Positions 49,199-58,038 of a DNA stretch of 64,000 bases are shown piece after piece (the stretch's first letter is position 1; each line of letters opens with the position of its first letter). The notes under the pieces are model-generated. The model had not been told where the DNA came from, did not search any database, and was given only the letters and a program-made list of their open reading frames with translations. A program made the position numbers and the translations under genes. Source of the stretch: Sediminispirochaeta bajacaliforniensis DSM 16054 (lineage in GTDB: Bacteria; Spirochaetota; Spirochaetia; DSM-16054; Sediminispirochaetaceae); contig NZ_KB899411.1 in assembly GCF_000378205.1 (NCBI RefSeq), positions 124,001 through 188,000 of the forward strand, read 5' to 3'.

Positions 49199-49226
49199 GA
49201 CATTTCATTACAATAAATGAGACGAC

Positions 49227-49259
49227 AAAACGGAGTGTGATTTTCGCACTCCGTTTTTT
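49227..49259 (+). terminator. Rho-independent terminator after tRNA-Cys
   Basis: AAAACGGAGTG and CACTCCGTTTT form an 11-bp stem with a 9-nt loop followed by a T-run, 28 bp downstream of the tRNA. Confidence 0.9.
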
Positions 49260-49709
49260 ATAGCAATCCCTTTCTTTAGAACAAGTTATACTAGGTTATC
49301 AAAAAAGCGGTGCTTATCCAAGTACTTCGGTGTATTTCGGCATGGTGGATTAAATCAATATAGTTTGCTGCGAAAGAAGCGGTATTGAATCTGATAAGCG
49401 CAATTCACCCAATGCACAATATCACCGTGTATTGGATGAACCGATAGTAGACAACAGTCACCAGACAATCACTAAAGCAGACGAAAAGCGAATCTCTTCC
49501 AACCTTTTTCGAAGCCGATCGGAAAAATAGTATACCTGGCTGTAAAAGCTATCTTCTTGTTTCATGGGCTGGTTCTTTAGGAAAAACCTCCTTGTGTCGA
49601 ACAAGATCCCAACAGGTCTCCTATCTGCTTTAATTCGAAACATCAATGGAATATGCTGCTACCCTAAACTTTGGATCGTATCCAACGACAGAAAGATTTG
49701 TTTTGAGGG
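49260..49709. other. Gap of about 450 bp holding only a gene remnant
   Basis: Between the tRNA terminator and the pseudokinase stop there is no full gene, no second tRNA end and no integrase. The only recognisable content is the short frame at 49458-49646. The region looks like decayed junction DNA of the accessory block. Confidence 0.4.
49458..49646 (-). pseudogene. Possible N-terminal remnant of a LuxR/MalT-type regulator
   Basis: A 62-codon frame ending in QVYYFSDRLRKRLEEIRFSSALVI and then a stop. This resembles the residues just before the P-loop (EAPSGYGKTT) of large LuxR/MalT-like ATPase regulators, with the rest missing. The match rests on a short stretch, so the identification is tentative. 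It may be a leftover of the gene disrupted when the accessory block formed. Confidence 0.28.
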
Positions 49710-51269
49710 CTAAGATCTATCAGCTAATGATCGTATCCAATGCAAAAAACGGTACCAACATCCATGACGAGTCATCTGCGGTGAGTTTTCATGTTTGCCT
49801 GGAATTTGTTTATCTTTCTCAAAATCGGTTTGCACAACCTCAGACACGGAATAATCAATCGTCTGGGCATGAGGGCCGGGAAACGGGATCTTCTTTGTCT
49901 CGGTGATGGGTTCAACAAGCTTAAAAGATTTGGCCGTTACCCGTAAATCTTTCATCCTATCCTGCTTCCGAGACGTCGAAAGAGGGCTATCCATGTTATC
50001 TTCACTGGTACGGTCCTCTCTCGTTTTGGTAGTGTCAGTATGATAAATAGGGCCACGTATGGGTTCCGTATATGCCGCTTCTTCCATATCGTCTTGTTTT
50101 TTACCGCCCTCACTATTTTGAATTGGCATATTATTATTGGGCTTCGATGATTTCCTGTACCCGAGGAAATAATCATCAAAGGTGCGATTTATCTGCCATG
50201 AAACCTTTTCACCCTCTTTTTCGGCATTTTCATCTATTTCCAGTAATTCTGCAGTATCCGGAATGTCTACAATGTCCTCTGCTTTTTCTCTGGAATTATG
50301 GGATCTGACAAAGAGATTCCGAAAAAATCCGGAAACGGTATCCCATAGTTTCCATAAGCTAATGGTATTGTTTTGTCCCCGGAGAGCTTGTGTATATCCT
50401 TTTTTATTGATTGATAGCTGTTTTTTTTGATATTCTGATTTTTCCAACAATTCCAATGCATTTCTTTCGTAAAAGAGAGCGGAAATCATATCCCGCAACT
50501 CTTTTATTGAAGAGAATTTTCTGGGAGAAAAAAGCATTCGTTCTATAATTTTTCGGGCATTCCCAGATAATGAAATATGCCTAATCACATCTTTGCTCGG
50601 AAAATAGTAACCGTCCCGTACTTGAAATGCGCTTATCCCAAATAACAAGGAATAGAGGGTCATGCCCAATGAGTATATATCACGATGGAGATCTATATTC
50701 GATAGTTTGGTACGATAGTTATAAAGGAAAAGCAAACGCTTCTGAATCCAATCGGGAACATTGTTTTCATCGTAGAAAGGCAACAGGCCCTGTACATAGC
50801 TATCGTTAAGCTGTGTATGCAAAACCGATACAGGATCAATGGAAATAGTTTCAAACGATACAAATCCATGATGGAGCCCCGCGGTCTCCAAGTAGTACAA
50901 GCTATCGACGATCCCGGAAAAAAGGGGAAGCGCATCTTTAAAAGGTAATTTCCAGCCGGAATTGAGTTTATCGGTCAAAGGAATACCAGTATCACGCAGA
51001 ATTGAAATAAAAGGATATTCATCGTAAAAGCCAAGCTCAATCAACGTCTCAATATTCCTATCCTTCACTTCATAAAGGCGAAAAAAAAGCGTCCGCAGAT
51101 CTTCCAGTACCGTAGCAGGGAATTCTGATCTCTTGCGACTTATAAAACAGATCGTAAAAGTATTTGCAGAATATACGGCATGAGCATTCCAAAATTCGAT
51201 AATTCCATCATCAGATATTTTCGAACGGATAAGGTAACAATTATTAATGGTAACCCCTTCAAGGTCCAT
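49710..51269 (-). CDS. Ser/Thr protein kinase-like pseudokinase with disordered tail
   Basis: A 519-aa protein. Residues 1-290 follow the eukaryotic-type kinase fold, best seen at DIYSLGMTLYSLLFG (197-211, subdomain IX). The catalytic loop HRDxxxxN is replaced by HHGFVSFET (133-141), the beta-3 lysine is absent (FTICFISRK) and no DFG is visible, so it should not transfer phosphate. Residues 290-519 are charged and low-complexity, probably disordered and a possible phosphorylation target. It is last in the left arm, 0 bp from the HipA-like kinase gene. Probable scaffold or allosteric partner of that kinase. Confidence 0.6.
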   Translation of the reverse strand: MDLEGVTINNCYLIRSKISDDGIIEFWNAHAVYSANTFTICFISRKRSEFPATVLEDLRTLFFRLYEVKDRNIETLIELGFYDEYPFISILRDTGIPLTDKLNSGWKLPFKDALPLFSGIVDSLYYLETAGLHHGFVSFETISIDPVSVLHTQLNDSYVQGLLPFYDENNVPDWIQKRLLFLYNYRTKLSNIDLHRDIYSLGMTLYSLLFGISAFQVRDGYYFPSKDVIRHISLSGNARKIIERMLFSPRKFSSIKELRDMISALFYERNALELLEKSEYQKKQLSINKKGYTQALRGQNNTISLWKLWDTVSGFFRNLFVRSHNSREKAEDIVDIPDTAELLEIDENAEKEGEKVSWQINRTFDDYFLGYRKSSKPNNNMPIQNSEGGKKQDDMEEAAYTEPIRGPIYHTDTTKTREDRTSEDNMDSPLSTSRKQDRMKDLRVTAKSFKLVEPITETKKIPFPGPHAQTIDYSVSEVVQTDFEKDKQIPGKHENSPQMTRHGCWYRFLHWIRSLADRS

Positions 51270-52205
51270 TTACGATTTTTTTCCCTTATAATAGTTCAGA
51301 AACGACTCTCCAAATCCTGAATAACGATCATTCTCCGCCTTTTCAACGGTTGCATCCCTTTTTTTGAACCATTTCCTGAAATAGTTATTTATATAGGTTC
51401 GTCGCTTCGATATGTTCGTCGAGACCAAAGTGGCAGTCTCCTGCACGGAAACATTCTTGATAATAGAATCACGCATGCTTTCCCTTGTAACAGATTCCAA
51501 TAACTCCAATGGGATCGACATCATGGTGGATAATCGGTCCTCGAATGTTTCTATCGAGAGCTTTTCAAAATTCTCTGTCTTCAATAGCGTGAGAAATCGT
51601 GTCTTTTCGGTACGGTGCCATCCGAATTTATCTTTGTTACCTGTTATTTTCATTTGAGTGCTCTTTAGATCTGCTTTGTTGTAGTCAATCACAACAACAC
51701 ACGGAGAAGAATCTCGATCATGGAAGACAAGATAATTATTGGGATTTCTGTCCTCATCGAAAAAAAGCCATCTATTTATGAGATCATTCGCTAAAATTCT
51801 CATAAATGGTTTTTCCAAATAATTATAACTAGAAATTTGCATTGCATTTTTTACATTCTTAGTAACACGATAATATGTGCCATTGATTTTTTTTAGAATA
51901 TTGGGCGCTGCAATGGTGTTTAGAAGAAAATCAATATAGTAGGCAATCTCCTGAAGTTTATGGTCATATGCCTCATTTTCGGGAATTTTTTTCAGCAGCC
52001 ATGAATTACCATCCTCGTCTTTTGCTCCGATATAACTTCTCATACTTGCAGTAAAGGGAACATCGGTATTATCACCAATATCAAATAGTTGAAGATTATT
52101 CATCTTGTCAATGAGCTCACCAATACTACAATCAAGATAAAGCCCTTTTCTGAATTCGCTGTCTTTGACAGTATAGAGCCGCTTTTCTTGCATATAATCA
52201 GACAT
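51270..52205 (-). CDS. HipA/PI-kinase-like atypical protein kinase
   Basis: A 311-aa protein with the residue pattern of HipA/PI3-4-kinase-fold enzymes: lysines in SWLLKKI (72-73), a helix-C glutamate near 86 (DHKLQEIAYYI), the catalytic loop FFDEDRNPNNYLVF (D152/N156) and metal motif VVIDYNKAD (D174). All key residues appear present, unlike the adjacent pseudokinase. No HipB-like antitoxin and no HipA N-subdomain, so it is not a classical HipBA toxin. It overlaps the phosphatase gene by 8 bp and abuts the pseudokinase. Targets unknown; the four paralogues and the tail of the pseudokinase are candidates. Confidence 0.6.
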   Translation of the reverse strand: MSDYMQEKRLYTVKDSEFRKGLYLDCSIGELIDKMNNLQLFDIGDNTDVPFTASMRSYIGAKDEDGNSWLLKKIPENEAYDHKLQEIAYYIDFLLNTIAAPNILKKINGTYYRVTKNVKNAMQISSYNYLEKPFMRILANDLINRWLFFDEDRNPNNYLVFHDRDSSPCVVVIDYNKADLKSTQMKITGNKDKFGWHRTEKTRFLTLLKTENFEKLSIETFEDRLSTMMSIPLELLESVTRESMRDSIIKNVSVQETATLVSTNISKRRTYINNYFRKWFKKRDATVEKAENDRYSGFGESFLNYYKGKKS

Positions 52206-53100
52206 AGAATCTCTCCCGTTCTTTTTCTATGGCAAACACATCGGTAATCTCACCATCATGGATTTTAAGGTAGGGAGCTCTGGTCTGCAGATTTGTATAG
52301 ATGATAATATGATTCTTTATACCAATAATATCCCTCCAAATCCCCGTTAAATTTCCGGTATTCCACATGGGATTATGGCCGACAATAAACGGCAGTTCCT
52401 CGGGCAGATCCAAGGCTTTCAGCATCTTTCGGATGTCACGTTCGTCGTATTCTTTCAAGCTTGGAGTTCCGCGGAATTCATGAAGGCGGTTCCACATCAG
52501 TTGATGACATATTTCCTGATCACTATACGCGTTGATCAATTCATCTCTTCCGCATCCCCCTCTGACAGGGCCTGCATGGGTAATGACAAACCCATTACCG
52601 ATAATAAAGAGCGGGAGGCTTTCAAAAAAATCACTAACGCTTTCAACATATTCTTCTCCACGGTGCTGCAGCAAAAATTCACGAAAAATTTTCCCCTGTT
52701 GGATCCCACTTTTCGCCAGACGTTCGTCGAAAGTATCGTGATTGCCTCTGATATAAAGAACATTTTCGCCATATGTCAAAATTAAACGAAACATCTCCTC
52801 AAGGACAAGAAGGGAACTTTCCATTTCAAGCATATGCCCCGTTTGATCGTTATGCACACCATCGCCGATAAAAACCACAAGCGATTTTCCCGCCTCAAGA
52901 GCTTTATCGTTCCCATCATGGGCGACAATTTTTACAAGATTATCGTAAGCTCCATGGAGATCGCCGATAACAATGACCTCACGTTTGTCTTTTGAGATAT
53001 CTATTAATCCGCCAGGTCGTCCCTCCCGATCCTTTGGACGATTCTTATTATTACCGAGAATCTTAATTACTTTTCGTATCAGTTCCGGCGTTATCTTCAT
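52198..53100 (-). CDS. PPP-type metallophosphoesterase (Ser/Thr protein phosphatase-like)
   Basis: A 300-aa calcineurin-fold phosphatase with the full PPP motif ladder: IGDLHG (45-50), FIGDGVHND (a variant of GDxVDRG, 78-86), RGNHDTFDE (118-126), VITHAGP near 173 and VGHNPMWN near 240. It overlaps the HipA-like kinase gene by 8 bp, which makes a writer/eraser pair on one message. Diadenosine tetraphosphatase is the alternative family function. It follows a paralogue gene by 39 bp. Confidence 0.8.
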   Translation of the reverse strand: MKITPELIRKVIKILGNNKNRPKDREGRPGGLIDISKDKREVIVIGDLHGAYDNLVKIVAHDGNDKALEAGKSLVVFIGDGVHNDQTGHMLEMESSLLVLEEMFRLILTYGENVLYIRGNHDTFDERLAKSGIQQGKIFREFLLQHRGEEYVESVSDFFESLPLFIIGNGFVITHAGPVRGGCGRDELINAYSDQEICHQLMWNRLHEFRGTPSLKEYDERDIRKMLKALDLPEELPFIVGHNPMWNTGNLTGIWRDIIGIKNHIIIYTNLQTRAPYLKIHDGEITDVFAIEKERERFYV

Positions 53101-53139
53101 GGCCGTTACCTCGCTTAGAATAATAAAGGTAAAAACATC

Positions 53140-53847
53140 TTATATGGAAGTATGAGAAAGTTTTTCCATAAATGCAAGAAACTCCGGTGAGGGCTTCACT
53201 TCGCTCTTTTCCCGCTCGATCCTGACCAATAATACTTTAGAAATAATGTCAGTCAATTTTTTCGTGTTATCAAAATAGGCCATCCTGATGCCATGGCTCT
53301 GCTTTGCAACGTTTATCTTTCTCAGGTCTCCATCGTATCGTCCAAGAATAGAAATCCAGTCAAGAATATCCAAAATCGTAGCATTTATGAGATCATCCTG
53401 GTCCATTTCCTGATCAAGAAATTTTCCGATGTTGTTTAGTTCGGAAATATCAAGATCGTAAATCTCGTATCCGTCGTTTGCATTATGATAACAAGACTCG
53501 ATGATACCAAGAATGGCAAGAAGAACCTTATAATAGATTTGGCCGGGATGCCAAACTGTCAGGAGCTGAAATGCTTTTTTGATAAGAGCCCTGTTAGGCT
53601 TTAGGATGGTAAAAAGAAGACGCGGATCATTATTGCCAACCAGAGAATCGACTATATATTTATTGTTGGTTTCCAATATCCTGAGAAAAATCCAATAATT
53701 AGTAGGATTGATACCGATATTTCTGATATATCGAGCAAAAAAAACACTAGACTCAACTTCGGAAGGAGTTGCCGCACCTATAATCCCATTCAAAATGATT
53801 TGTTTATTCTGTATCAAGATATCGTCATATTGATCTGGAATACTCAT
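53140..53847 (-). CDS. Paralogue 1 of an unrecognised four-member family
   Basis: A 235-aa, mostly helical, cytoplasmic protein. It shares with the plus-strand proteins at 55724, 56437 and 57294 an ordered set of motifs: ARYIRNIGINPTNYWIFLR, VDSLVGNNDP, WHPGQIYYKVLLAILGI, NDGYEIYDLDISELNNIGKFL and QDDLINATILDILDWI. I do not recognise the family. It is first in the left arm, upstream of the phosphatase and kinases, and is the most diverged member (IGKFL for LGKHL). Confidence 0.65.
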   Translation of the reverse strand: MSIPDQYDDILIQNKQIILNGIIGAATPSEVESSVFFARYIRNIGINPTNYWIFLRILETNNKYIVDSLVGNNDPRLLFTILKPNRALIKKAFQLLTVWHPGQIYYKVLLAILGIIESCYHNANDGYEIYDLDISELNNIGKFLDQEMDQDDLINATILDILDWISILGRYDGDLRKINVAKQSHGIRMAYFDNTKKLTDIISKVLLVRIEREKSEVKPSPEFLAFMEKLSHTSI

Positions 53848-53892
53848 TCCTCTGTTTTCCCTGGTGATACACTACTCTTACTCTACAGAGAT

Positions 53893-53922
53893 AGTATAAA
53901 ACTATTGTTTTCCCGTTGTCTA
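53893..53922 (-). promoter_or_regulatory. Promoter of the left arm (paralogue-phosphatase-kinase operon)
   Basis: On the minus strand TAGACA (53922-53917) and TATACT (53898-53893) are 18 bp apart, 46 bp upstream of ATG 53847. Confidence 0.5.
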
Positions 53923-53939
53923 ATGATCATGAAAGAAAT

Positions 53940-53980
53940 TTGTTTTCACGGTTGGGGTTTATTAGTATTTAAATAAATAC
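53940..53980 (+). promoter_or_regulatory. Promoter region and palindrome of the right arm
   Basis: TTGTTT (53940-53945) and TAGTAT (53963-53968) are 17 bp apart, a weak sigma-70 match. GTATTTAAATAAATAC (53965-53980) is a perfect 7-bp inverted repeat with a 2-bp centre, overlapping the -10 box. This divergent region lets one site control both arms. Confidence 0.4.
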
Positions 53981-53997
53981 CAAGTCGGGGGCTTACG

Positions 53998-55614
53998 GTG
54001 CAAAACAGTTCCCTGGACAAAGAACTTCTTGATCTCTATGCATTTGTTCGTCTACATGGATGGAAAAGCCAGACGAGCCAATTATTAAATGCCTTTAGCG
54101 CAAATTTTATTCAGGCGACTTCCTCTGACGATGAGAAAACAAAGGCTTCGCTTTTACAACATACCAAATCTGTTTTAGAAGCAGAGGGAACATCTCAAGA
54201 AAAAATTCTTTCGCTACTCCTCTACCACAAATTAGGTAAAAACTACGTTACCATCGCAGAAAATTTTTACCGGCATCTTTATGGAAGTATAGGTCAGGAG
54301 GACTTTTCTTTTATCTTTTCAGAGCTTTTTAGAGGGGAAAACCCTCTTCCAGATGACTTATCCTACGATATTTCCATAAGAAATTTCATATCATATAAAC
54401 GAGCAATCTATCATGCCATGCAAATCGACCACTTTCAGTCGGTTCATACCCCAGAGATGACAGCCCTCTTTTTTGTCTGCCTTTTATGCAAAAATGACGT
54501 GAAGGAACAAAACAAAGCACTCATTTGCTACCTCCTTTCCCGAATAGATGTAGATCTTCCGGCGAATATTGAAAAAGGCGTAATGAACTATCTCTCTTCG
54601 CTGCAAGACATTATAGAAGAAGTTGAAAAACGGAAAGAAGCTGTCTTGTCGGATCCTCTTTTCTTTGACAACGAGCCTTCGACCTCAGCCAATGCGGTCA
54701 AGAAGAATGCAAAAAGCAACAATGCTCCCGGGAATTATCAGCCTTCTATCGAGGCAAGGCAGACTACTAAGCATACCGATATCTTTAATCATATAGTCGA
54801 AGACCATCGTTTTTTTCCGGAGTCAAAAAAAGAGAGAACATCGATGAGCTCAACTAATCCTTCGGAAGCGATAAGTAACAAATCGTCAAGCTTCCTCCAC
54901 GCACACGATATCTTTTGGAAAAGAAAACGGATAATTGTCGATGAAGACAAACCTCACGATAGTAAAGCCGTTCTAAAAAATAGTACAAAAAAACACGGCA
55001 CTCCAGATATACTTTCGTATACACAGGCTCATGTTAATGCCGAAGAGAAAACAATAAAAATAGATGGAGAGAAGGTAGATGATGCAACCAGGTTTACGGT
55101 AACATTCAGTCGTAACAGAACAGCTGAAAAATCCTTAGAACAGAATGACAAAAAAAATAAACCACCGAAAAAAGCATTAAAGCGCCATCCATCAAAACAT
55201 AGGTGCCGTATTATTGTTCTTCTAATCATGGCTATAGGATTAATTGTAATCCTTTTTCCTGAAAAAAAACCTTCATCGAAGAAAATCGAGAAACCGACTA
55301 CCAATATTAATACAGAGATACAAACTTCCGACTTGCATCCAGTCACATCAAATACAAAATCTTATAGCCAAACATCTTCGACTTATACGAATGTAGGCTC
55401 TTATACTTTCGTATGGTACCCCTCAAAAGGAGAAAGTCTTTGGGTGCTTTACCAGAAAATAAAAAACGATCCGCATACCATATGGCATGAAGCCTTATCG
55501 GTAGCAAATAGTGGTTGGAGCGAGTTTCTTAACTATATACTTTCGATTAATCCTGAAATCGAATATCCAAATCTTATATATCCTGGAGAACCTATAAGAG
55601 TAGAGAAACCGTGA
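53998..55614 (+). CDS. Single-pass membrane protein with LysM-like periplasmic domain
   Basis: A 538-aa protein with GTG start. Residues 1-215 form a helical cytoplasmic domain of unknown type. Residues about 216-400 are polar, Lys/Ser/Asn-rich and likely disordered. One transmembrane helix (RIIVLLIMAIGLIVILF, about 402-420) follows a strongly basic stretch, giving N-in topology. The C-terminal segment (from about 466: YTFVWYPSKGESLWVLYQKI ... PNLIYPGEPIRV) resembles a LysM fold, so it may bind peptidoglycan. It heads the right arm and could link the cytoplasmic kinase machinery to the wall. Confidence 0.65.
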   Translation: MQNSSLDKELLDLYAFVRLHGWKSQTSQLLNAFSANFIQATSSDDEKTKASLLQHTKSVLEAEGTSQEKILSLLLYHKLGKNYVTIAENFYRHLYGSIGQEDFSFIFSELFRGENPLPDDLSYDISIRNFISYKRAIYHAMQIDHFQSVHTPEMTALFFVCLLCKNDVKEQNKALICYLLSRIDVDLPANIEKGVMNYLSSLQDIIEEVEKRKEAVLSDPLFFDNEPSTSANAVKKNAKSNNAPGNYQPSIEARQTTKHTDIFNHIVEDHRFFPESKKERTSMSSTNPSEAISNKSSSFLHAHDIFWKRKRIIVDEDKPHDSKAVLKNSTKKHGTPDILSYTQAHVNAEEKTIKIDGEKVDDATRFTVTFSRNRTAEKSLEQNDKKNKPPKKALKRHPSKHRCRIIVLLIMAIGLIVILFPEKKPSSKKIEKPTTNINTEIQTSDLHPVTSNTKSYSQTSSTYTNVGSYTFVWYPSKGESLWVLYQKIKNDPHTIWHEALSVANSGWSEFLNYILSINPEIEYPNLIYPGEPIRVEKP

Positions 55615-55648
55615 TTTTCAAAAATATCTGAAAAAAACGGTGTAAAAA

Positions 55649-55677
55649 TTGACATTCCAAATTCTGTTATCAATAAT
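55649..55677 (+). promoter_or_regulatory. Strong sigma-70 promoter before the three right-arm paralogues
   Basis: A perfect TTGACA (55649-55654), 17-bp spacer and AATAAT (55672-55677). The predicted start is about 40 bp before the ATG at 55724, in the gap after the LysM gene, so the three paralogues can be expressed on their own. Confidence 0.65.
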
Positions 55678-55723
55678 TTTTTCTATGGACATGTGCTTCA
55701 AACTATAAAAACGGAGGAACACG

Positions 55724-56422
55724 ATGGATAAAGAACAAACTCGAAGTGTTGAAGAAACTTGGAGTAAAGAATCAATAATGGATGTTGAAATAACCATTAT
55801 TGAAAGGATGATTGGCTGTCGAAGCGTTGAAGCGGTGGAGGCATCTATCAGCTATGCTCGATTTTTACATCTTGCTGGTCTCGATAATGACAATTATCCA
55901 TTGTTTCTGCGCCTCTTGGAAGTAGAAAATCATTGGGTTATCGATTCTTTAATCGAAAACAAAGATCCTTTTCTGCTCTTAAGCTCAGTGCACCCTAATA
56001 ATTATCTCATTTTGAATGCTTTCCGGCTCCTTACCAATTGGCATCCTGGCGGTATTTATCCCAAAACGCTGGCTATCATTCTCGGCGTTCTCCAGGCGGC
56101 CTTTAGTTCTCCCAAGGATGGATATCGTATATACAATGTCAGTATTAACGATATTAATAATTTGGGAAAGCATTTGAACAAGGAACTGGGCCAGGACGAT
56201 CTTAACAACAGATGCATGCTTGATATTCTTGATCGTATTGGTTCTTTGGCAGGAACTACCGAAAACGAAGCTATCGAGCAAGCAGCAAGACAGGCAAACA
56301 GCATTAGGACGTTTTTCTTCGACAAACGGAAAAAGATGGAAGACATTATTCCCCAGGTTCTCTTGGTCAAGTCTGATTATATTGCAAAAGAAATACCACC
56401 AGAGAAAGTCTTTGTAGATTAA
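55724..56422 (+). CDS. Paralogue 2 of an unrecognised four-member family
   Basis: A 232-aa helical protein. Key shared motifs: EAVEASISYARFLHLAGLDNDNYPLFLRLLE, VIDSLIENKDPFLLL, NWHPGGIYPKTLAIILGVLQ, KDGYRIYNVSINDINNLGKHLN and GQDDLNNRCMLDILD. The ATG follows GGAGGA. It is 14 bp upstream of paralogue 3. No signal peptide, no metal or nucleotide motif and no obvious catalytic residues, so a structural or adaptor role is more likely than an enzyme. Confidence 0.65.
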   Translation: MDKEQTRSVEETWSKESIMDVEITIIERMIGCRSVEAVEASISYARFLHLAGLDNDNYPLFLRLLEVENHWVIDSLIENKDPFLLLSSVHPNNYLILNAFRLLTNWHPGGIYPKTLAIILGVLQAAFSSPKDGYRIYNVSINDINNLGKHLNKELGQDDLNNRCMLDILDRIGSLAGTTENEAIEQAARQANSIRTFFFDKRKKMEDIIPQVLLVKSDYIAKEIPPEKVFVD

Positions 56423-56436
56423 TAAAGGAGAACACG

Positions 56437-57210
56437 ATGAAAGAACTTTTTGATAAGAAACAAGCCTATTCCAAGGAAGATATTGCTGCTATCGAATATA
56501 GTCAGCTCAAAGGAATTATGGGAGTTCGTACTGTCGAAGCAGTTGAAGCAGCGATGACGTACGCCAATTATCTCAATAGTATTGGAATCACATCAAGTAA
56601 CTATCCGATATTTCTCAAGGTTCTTGGTGTCCGAAATCACCATGTTATCGACTCCTTACTGGGGACACGTGATCCATTCCTTTTTCTCAGCTCAATACAG
56701 CCAAACTATTTTATCGTTGCAACGTGCTTTAGTTTTTTGGCAAAATATCATCCTGCAGAAATTTATTCGAAAACCCTTGGGATCATTCTTGGCGTATTCC
56801 AGGCAACATATTCCAATCCTTTAGACGGATACAAGATTTATCCCCCAACCATCGCTGACGTAAACAGCCTTGGAAAACACTTGATAGAAGAAAAAGGACA
56901 GGATGATTTATTGAACCGGTCGATTTTGGATGTCCTGGATAAGCTTAGTGAGCTTGAAGGACAAAATATAGACGAAGAAATGGAAGACCTTGCTGTACAT
57001 GCTCACAATATTAGAAACAATTTCTTCGATTCAACGAAACGCCTTGTGGATGTTATTCCCAACGTCCTGTTAAAAACCGAACCTAATCTGGATCTTGAAA
57101 TCAATCCCAGGAAAAATGGAAGCCTTAGCGATAATGCAAAACCACAAGCTCGTCCCACACCAGCTGCTAAACCGGAAGAAGAAAAACCTGCTGCCACAAA
57201 AAAGAAATAG
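56437..57210 (+). CDS. Paralogue 3 of an unrecognised four-member family, with Pro/Lys tail
   Basis: A 257-aa member with the shared core (AVEAAMTYANYLNSIGITSSNYPIFLKVLGV, VIDSLLGTRDPFLFL, YHPAEIYSKTLGIILGVFQ, LDGYKIYPPTIADVNSLGKHL, GQDDLLNRSILDVLD). It adds a C-terminal low-complexity extension (ARPTPAAKPEEEKPAATKKK), which the other copies lack. That basic, Pro/Ala-rich tail resembles flexible interaction or surface-binding tails. Confidence 0.65.
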   Translation: MKELFDKKQAYSKEDIAAIEYSQLKGIMGVRTVEAVEAAMTYANYLNSIGITSSNYPIFLKVLGVRNHHVIDSLLGTRDPFLFLSSIQPNYFIVATCFSFLAKYHPAEIYSKTLGIILGVFQATYSNPLDGYKIYPPTIADVNSLGKHLIEEKGQDDLLNRSILDVLDKLSELEGQNIDEEMEDLAVHAHNIRNNFFDSTKRLVDVIPNVLLKTEPNLDLEINPRKNGSLSDNAKPQARPTPAAKPEEEKPAATKKK

Positions 57211-57293
57211 AAGAGTAGTTGTGCCTCTCAAGGGCAACGAGGCGGCAAGAGAAATCCTCTTGTCAGAACAGGACTGATAAGGAGAAATGTATC

Positions 57294-57983
57294 ATGAAAC
57301 GATGGGAAGAAGAGGGTTGGCAGGAAGATGATCTGAACAAGCTAGAGCTTTCGTTTCTCCGGGATATTCTGAAGTGTAGAGAGGCAAAAGCAGTCGATGG
57401 TGCGATTGCCTATGCTTCTTATCTTAACAAGGTCGGTGTTAATTCTGATAATTACCCGATATATCTCAAGTTGTTGGCTATCAGAAATCACTGGGTTGTA
57501 GATGCTTTAGTAGGTACTACCGATCCTGATACGTTCTTTGGAAACATTCAGGCAAATTATTATATAATTAGAGATTGTTTCCAGGCCTTTGCAGCAGTAA
57601 GACGCGGAGGGATTTATGAAAAAAGTTTACTTGTTTATTTGGGTATGTTAAGAAGGACTTATCATAATCCTTTGGAGGGATACAGAATTTATCCCGTGAC
57701 TATTTCTGATGTGAACCATCTTGGCAAGCATTTGAATGAGGAAAAAGATCAAATGTTCGACCTGAATAAGAACATTTTATCGATTCTCGACAAGATTGCT
57801 TCCCTGCTTGATCCGGGGAATACTGAATCCATTGACGATGAACTACTTAAGGTTGCTACCCAGGCCAATAATATTCGTGGGAAATTTCTTGATATGACAA
57901 AGTCATTAAGTGAAGCGATACCTGATCTCATGCTGCAAACCGATGAATTCTCGACACAGGAAGTTCCTCCCTCAAAAAGTTGA
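57294..57983 (+). CDS. Paralogue 4 of an unrecognised four-member family
   Basis: A 229-aa member. I start at ATG 57294 behind AAGGAG; the frame is open upstream to 57219 with no ribosome site. Shared core: AVDGAIAYASYLNKVGVNSDNYPIYLKLLAI, VVDALVGTTDPDTFF, RRGGIYEKSLLVYLGMLRR, LEGYRIYPVTISDVNHLGKHLN, FDLNKNILSILDKI. The WHPG motif is changed to RRGG. Last gene of the right arm, followed by a terminator. Confidence 0.65.
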   Translation: MKRWEEEGWQEDDLNKLELSFLRDILKCREAKAVDGAIAYASYLNKVGVNSDNYPIYLKLLAIRNHWVVDALVGTTDPDTFFGNIQANYYIIRDCFQAFAAVRRGGIYEKSLLVYLGMLRRTYHNPLEGYRIYPVTISDVNHLGKHLNEEKDQMFDLNKNILSILDKIASLLDPGNTESIDDELLKVATQANNIRGKFLDMTKSLSEAIPDLMLQTDEFSTQEVPPSKS

Positions 57984-58001: not shown

Positions 58002-58038
58002 AACGGCCTAAAGTGAAAATCTCTAGGCCGTTTGTTTT
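58002..58038 (+). terminator. Rho-independent terminator closing the accessory locus
   Basis: AACGGCCTA and TAGGCCGTT form a 9-bp stem with a 13-nt loop, followed by TGTTTT. It lies 18 bp after the paralogue 4 stop and marks the end of the right arm. Confidence 0.8.

Follow-up and report, generated by a model that had tools for sequence, protein, structure and literature searches.

In the PASTA modules of bacteria, Hanks-type kinases of the StkP/PrkC kind and PPM phosphatases are encoded together and a wall-binding membrane component is present, and in the eukaryotic PP2A/STRIPAK assemblies a PPP enzyme, solenoid proteins and kinases are combined in one set. A D-x4-N motif together with a characteristic layout of metal-binding Asp residues is typical of the families of type II phosphatidylinositol (PI) 4-kinases, CtkA and HipA/HipT, and spirochaetes possess SpoIIE/STAS partner-switching loci. 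Here, a locus that shares some traits with each of these systems is described from Sediminispirochaeta bajacaliforniensis DSM 16054, where it occupies positions 49710-57983 of a stretch of 64,000 nucleotides (contig NZ_KB899411.1, positions 124,001 to 188,000; hereafter, the window). It encodes an atypical kinase (HK), a PPP-family phosphatase (PPP), a pseudokinase (PK), a membrane protein (LYSM) and four paralogous P proteins. In a first-pass annotation, a self-contained, undescribed module had been proposed in which a kinase resembling HipA and PI kinases is combined with a phosphatase of the PPP family, a pseudokinase and several helical paralogues, and this proposal is supported by the comparisons below. 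Among free-living spirochaetes and SAR324 bacteria, the P proteins, HK and PPP are retained or lost as a group, so that they appear to form a real, undescribed cellular machine, which is probably switched by phosphorylation.

All eight open reading frames are present in two divergent four-gene arms separated by 150 bp, as the annotation had stated. The minus arm reads P1-PPP-HK-PK and the plus arm LYSM-P2-P3-P4:

49710..51269, minus strand, PK: Hanks-type pseudokinase domain at the N-terminus, then an extended low-complexity region and a short conserved C-terminal motif, F/W-x-R-x-L-x-x-I-x-x-L
51270..52205, minus strand, HK: predicted atypical kinase of the PI4K-II/CtkA/HipA fold with K72, D152, N157 and D174 intact
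52198..53100, minus strand, PPP: PPP-family phosphatase (Pfam Metallophos, 3e-13)
53140..53847, minus strand, P1: member of the P family (predicted helical solenoids), placed there by paralogue search and tree
53848..53997, no strand: intergenic gap of exactly 150 bp between the divergent P1 and LYSM genes
53998..55614, plus strand, LYSM: conserved N-terminal domain of about 220 aa, linker, one transmembrane span and C-terminal LysM-like domain
55724..56422, plus strand, P2: P paralogue, the most conserved
56437..57210, plus strand, P3: P paralogue with a low-complexity C-terminal tail
57294..57983, plus strand, P4: P paralogue; reading frame open from TTG 57219
58002..58038, plus strand: candidate intrinsic terminator of the plus arm with a 9-bp stem, a 13-nt loop and a T-rich tail, read by eye

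Unlike the StkP/PrkC modules, the locus has a dead Hanks domain and an intact kinase of another fold, its phosphatase belongs to the PPP and not to the PPM family, and wall contact is through a separate LysM protein. HK resembles the type II PI 4-kinases, CtkA and HipA/HipT in its predicted fold and in the D-x4-N and metal-binding Asp layout, but it has no family match at the sequence level, differs in its N- and C-terminal parts and is always encoded in genomes with P proteins, without a HipB or HipS partner. In contrast to the subunits of PP2A/STRIPAK, the P proteins are short paralogues (about 230 aa) that match no known family and have no demonstrated homology to PR65, and their complex is a putative one. 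The SpoIIE/STAS loci (type E, below) have the P2-P3 pair in common with the window and carry it beside a regulatory cluster centred on a phosphatase, but lack HK, a PPP orthologue, P1, P4, PK and LYSM. Searches of family libraries and of open-access literature revealed no named system with this gene set and no published one with the same architecture; keyword searches of a review of bacterial pseudokinase families (PMC12599244) and of a survey of the HipA family (PMC8262856) likewise gave no system of such architecture. What is new is the system, as the P family, the HK family and their combination match nothing described in the libraries and literature searched; the enzyme superfamilies and the general principle of reversible phosphorylation on a scaffold are not new.

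The core gene set recurs in different arrangements

Relatives of the locus were collected from 60 genome relatives, 296 Spirochaetota genomes, 52 genomes of the SAR324 phylum and a scan of about 85,000 species. The scan yielded 49 loci, all from Spirochaetota and SAR324/'Deltaproteobacteria' assemblies, and profile annotation indicates that gene order differs between them. Window-like loci (type A, n = 13, some on short contigs) contain P1, PPP, HK, P2, P3 and P4 in 13/13 cases, PK in 11/13 and LYSM in 9/13. In the 18 type B loci, the genes are mostly arranged as P1-PPP-HK-P2-P3-P4-PK in a single direction and LYSM is absent. Type C loci have divergent LYSM and P1 genes, an arrangement also seen in type A, and possess a fifth paralogue, P5, whereas PK was not found in them. 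Type D, from SAR324, consists of P5-P2-P3-P4 and PPP, and type E of P2-P3 alone. As flanking genes outside the set differ between loci, except among close relatives, the gene set itself is the conserved unit. An origin from a phage or mobile element was rejected, because no viral contigs carrying the gene set were found and the variable flanks contain no recurring mobile gene.

At the level of whole genomes, HK was detected in 9/296 and P proteins in 11/296 Spirochaetota genomes, all nine HK genomes being among the 11; the two P-positive genomes without HK are 81-83% complete. In the SAR324 phylum, the 6/52 genomes with HK are also the six that encode P proteins. As this co-occurrence was scored per genome and HK is not linked to the P block in 5/6 of the SAR324 genomes, it is independent of linkage. 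An orthologue of PPP (E below 1e-120) was detected in 14/14 full-system genomes searched and in 0/5 P2-P3-only genomes searched, from which HK is absent as well. Homologues scattered without their partners, which the first-pass annotation had named as evidence against a system, are not what was found for the core: HK is always accompanied by P proteins (9/9 and 6/6), and the co-occurrence that had been suggested as a check on the eight genes is seen for the core across genomes, with reordered versions of the set at 49 loci. Since blocks recur reordered and the genes co-occur at the genome level, a chance association of neighbours was rejected. The gene set is a real unit with a core of P proteins, HK and PPP, and PK and LYSM are lineage-specific.

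HK and PPP are apparently active enzymes

The catalytic residues of HK, annotated as complete, are conserved among 32 relatives, D152, N157 and D174 being invariant and K72 nearly so. An AlphaFold2 (AF2) model of HK (predicted local distance difference test (pLDDT) 90) was compared with folds in the PDB. The best scores were obtained with PI4KIIbeta (Z 15.7 in VIA-align; 226 aligned, 3.9 A) and CtkA (Z 15.2; Foldseek 5e-5), and HipA reached Z 10-12, so that the type II PI 4-kinases and CtkA are nearest, followed by FAM20/CotH and then by HipA. Sequence searches of the PDB with HK gave nothing significant and no HipA match was obtained in Pfam, NCBIfam or PADLOC. The model suggests that HK is an atypical kinase of the PI4K-II/CtkA/HipA fold and apparently active. 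In four SAR324 loci (L099, L100, L101 and L103), the unlinked HK gene adjoins a gene whose product resembles MtxA, a periplasmic protein associated with magnetotaxis; the identification was made by Pfam in L103. In several of these loci, a gene resembling DHH-type phosphoesterases is adjacent to HK as well.

PPP possesses the metal-ligand motifs GDxHG, GDxx, GNH, H and GH, and across 15 relatives D47, H49, D80, N120, H175 and H242 do not vary, in agreement with the annotation of complete motifs. Judged by these residues, it is apparently an active phosphatase. In one type C lineage, a second PPP phosphatase with N-terminal CBS domains is encoded behind the block (L045:10925-12328, L088:14723), and its domain composition suggests a nucleotide-sensing variant.

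P proteins form five groups and are predicted to be helical

A search of the source genome with P1 led to exactly four places, all in the block, and the four annotated paralogues are thus real. In a tree of 202 sequences, in which group labels were assigned from profile scores, the P proteins separate into five ancient groups, P1 to P5, each a clade with support of 0.94-0.99 except for P3, whose basal node is weak (0.08). Apart from fragmentary assemblies, full-system genomes carry four or five P proteins. Median identities within type A are 84% for P2, 82% for P3, 56% for HK, 32% for LYSM and 26% for PK; P2 and P3 are the slowest-evolving parts of the system, as would be expected of proteins with many obligatory contacts.

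Searching the PDB with the P2 sequence gave nothing significant. For one relative (L035), the P2 and P3 sequences were joined by reading through the intervening stop and modelled with AF2 as one chain, using alignment rows from loci with both genes in one frame and from a natural fusion (L058). The joined chain is predicted to be all-helical (mean pLDDT 82.9; predicted template modelling score (pTM) 0.80), and the pTM suggests that both halves hold a defined relative placement. The P proteins had been annotated as helical effectors. The helical part of this claim agrees with the model, whereas the slow evolution of two P paralogues and the putative HEAT/ARM-like fold of the modelled pair suggest a structural scaffold more than effectors.

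In type E loci (L081:3994-14048, and also L082, L084, L086 and L087), P2-P3 lie near genes for a ParA-type ATPase and a small partner, and the same loci carry a SpoIIE-type PP2C phosphatase, STAS proteins and an HDOD protein. The P family is found here in another genomic setting, which may represent a second phospho-switch acting on the same scaffold. At L058:10001-11329 (the same locus as L038:9056-10384), P2 and P3 are fused in frame in an assembly that has a LYSM gene nearby and lacks HK and an orthologous PPP; either the system is reduced or in decay here, or the assembly is at fault. An extra divergent P1-like reading frame of 189 aa lies beyond LYSM at L033:4417-4986, and genome G025 contains a fifth P-like copy with an internal stop away from the block.

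PK and LYSM are lineage-specific components

When the eight proteins were scanned for known families, PPP was recognized, PK weakly so, and none of the others. The reading of PK as a pseudokinase holds: its family profile matches StkP (5e-25), and in the 12 rows inspected the HRD and DFG motifs are lost. The VAIK lysine has no counterpart and the alpha-F Asp197 is kept. PK also gave the only PADLOC matches, weak ones to Hanks-kinase models (MkoA 4e-8, PD-T4-6 3e-7), and the other seven proteins matched none of the known anti-phage defence families in PADLOC.

The LysM-like domain of LYSM from the window has an E of 0.005, which does not reach the Pfam cut-off, and in two relatives (L085 and L090) it is clear by Pfam and beyond the cut-off (4e-14 and 5e-6). 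The N-terminal domain of LYSM is probably cytosolic; a profile comparison with the P family was negative, and its assignment as a further P paralogue was rejected. In genomes without LYSM in the block, matches elsewhere were to the C-terminal LysM domain only. Both the wall-contacting sensor and the pseudokinase had been annotated as parts of the module, and this is unsupported or too strong, as neither part is universal: LYSM and PK are missing from whole lineages.

A proposed mechanism and its alternatives

We propose, with about equal confidence for and against, a hetero-oligomeric P scaffold whose phosphorylation is controlled by HK and PPP and which is linked to the envelope by PK and LYSM. 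The block would be one functional system, and its core would be a scaffold of four or five ancient paralogous HEAT/ARM-like solenoid P proteins together with HK and PPP. HK would phosphorylate one of the P proteins or else a partner that docks on the scaffold, and PPP, held on or near the scaffold, would take the phosphate off, and the change in phosphorylation would alter scaffold assembly or the binding of partners. In the lineage of the window, PK and LYSM would anchor the scaffold at the inner membrane and peptidoglycan. We infer the activity of HK on protein, the identity of its substrate, a cellular complex of P proteins, what PK and LYSM do and what the output of the system is; the LysM protein and the strong conservation are the only grounds on which a role at the envelope is favoured. 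The roles of writer, eraser and scaffold that the annotation had given to kinase, phosphatase and pseudokinase are putative.

Several points weigh against this proposal. The Fisher tests for HK and P proteins (p of about 1e-15 in the 296 Spirochaetota genomes and 5e-8 in the 52 SAR324-phylum genomes) ignore phylogeny, and as members of a clade are not independent, these p values overstate the evidence, although the pattern is still clean; most of the genomes sampled are metagenome-assembled. The P2-P3 model depends on a stop read-through that joins two chains, on only 26 alignment rows and on a single model, and its matches in the PDB are weak and to generic HEAT/ARM solenoids (best Foldseek E 0.014; VIA Z 9, root-mean-square deviation 22 A). 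Type E genomes possess P2-P3 without HK and PPP, and P proteins must therefore have some use that does not require these enzymes. The absence of PK and LYSM from whole lineages, described above, counts on the same side.

A bacterial and independently evolved counterpart of PP2A/STRIPAK, in which a hetero-oligomer of four or five ancient solenoid subunits would hold PPP, HK and PK together and in which LYSM would couple the wall to the cytoplasm, is an analogy that we consider doubtful; if it is true, no bacterial scaffold or skeleton described so far resembles this phospho-controlled one. Somewhat less likely still is an analogue of PP2A/STRIPAK with the phosphatase as functional centre, the HEAT-like P proteins serving as regulatory scaffold of PPP and recruiting kinase and pseudokinase. 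This explanation is made serious by SAR324, where PPP lies beside P genes in 6/6 loci and HK in 1/6, and PPP has eukaryotic BSU1 (1e-6) and PP5 (2e-5) as its nearest profile matches. PP2A scaffold chains are among the weak generic solenoid matches of the P proteins, but none of these matches is significant (E 0.01 or worse) and such a list would include any HEAT protein, and P2-P3 are also found without an orthologous PPP.

It is improbable that HK makes a phosphoinositide-like lipid to which the other proteins respond at the membrane. Type II PI 4-kinases give the top structural score with HK, and PK and LYSM show membrane or putative amphipathic features; however, the protein kinases CtkA, FAM20 and HipA lie within 1 to 5 Z units, the fold cannot separate lipid from protein kinases, and a PPP phosphatase as partner points to a phosphoprotein. 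To a module for the placement or envelope anchoring of periplasmic flagella we likewise assign a small probability. Flagellin is present in 11/11 P-positive and 34/49 P-negative genomes of the relatives set, an association that is borderline (Fisher p 0.05) and not corrected for phylogeny, but the system is missing from most flagellated relatives, and the block has no recurring neighbour with a flagellar or chemotaxis function. A toxin-antitoxin or persistence module of the HipA kind, in which HK would be a toxin that phosphorylates a translation factor and the remaining genes would supply the antitoxin, is very improbable even though HK belongs to the HipA/CtkA/HipT fold group, as HK lacks a HipA family match, scans of all eight proteins revealed no HipB- or HipS-like partner but PPP, PK and P genes as neighbours of HK, the core is single-copy, slow-evolving and multi-gene, with a phosphatase and four or five paralogues and no viral copies, and HK is retained without linkage in SAR324.

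If the preferred mechanism, a P scaffold whose phosphorylation is set by HK and PPP, is true, bacteria would have their own way of uniting an atypical kinase with a PPP phosphatase, a pseudokinase and a solenoid scaffold, whereas such designs are better known in eukaryotes. The system adds to free-living spirochaetes and SAR324 a conserved multi-protein set with an uncharacterised protein family (P) and an uncharacterised kinase family (HK), and it is open to testing in the cultured congener S. smaragdinae, whose P1 is 98% identical to that of the window.

Gene boundaries and neighbouring genes

The PPP and HK genes overlap by 8 nt and PK begins directly behind the HK stop codon, spacing with which an operon organization of the minus arm fits. 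For P4, comparison with relatives makes the ATG at 57294 the likely start, favoured over TTG 57219. The stem followed by T residues just past P4 (58002-58038) is probably the intrinsic terminator of the plus arm; the automated terminator scanner does not allow a loop as long as that of this hairpin.

A short gene adjoining the block at L053:9246-9779 encodes an N-terminal membrane span and a C-terminal four-cysteine zinc-ribbon-like motif, and similar small genes occur in L032, L034, L049, L061, L070, L071 and L072, in types A, B and C. A motif search did not find such a gene in the window. It is a possible ninth member of the system.

Between the tRNA-Cys gene and PK (49200-49700), the window contains an apparent remnant only of a LuxR/MalT-type regulator gene, and this regulator (839 aa) is intact in an S. 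smaragdinae-like genome (G001; L030:14609-17128).

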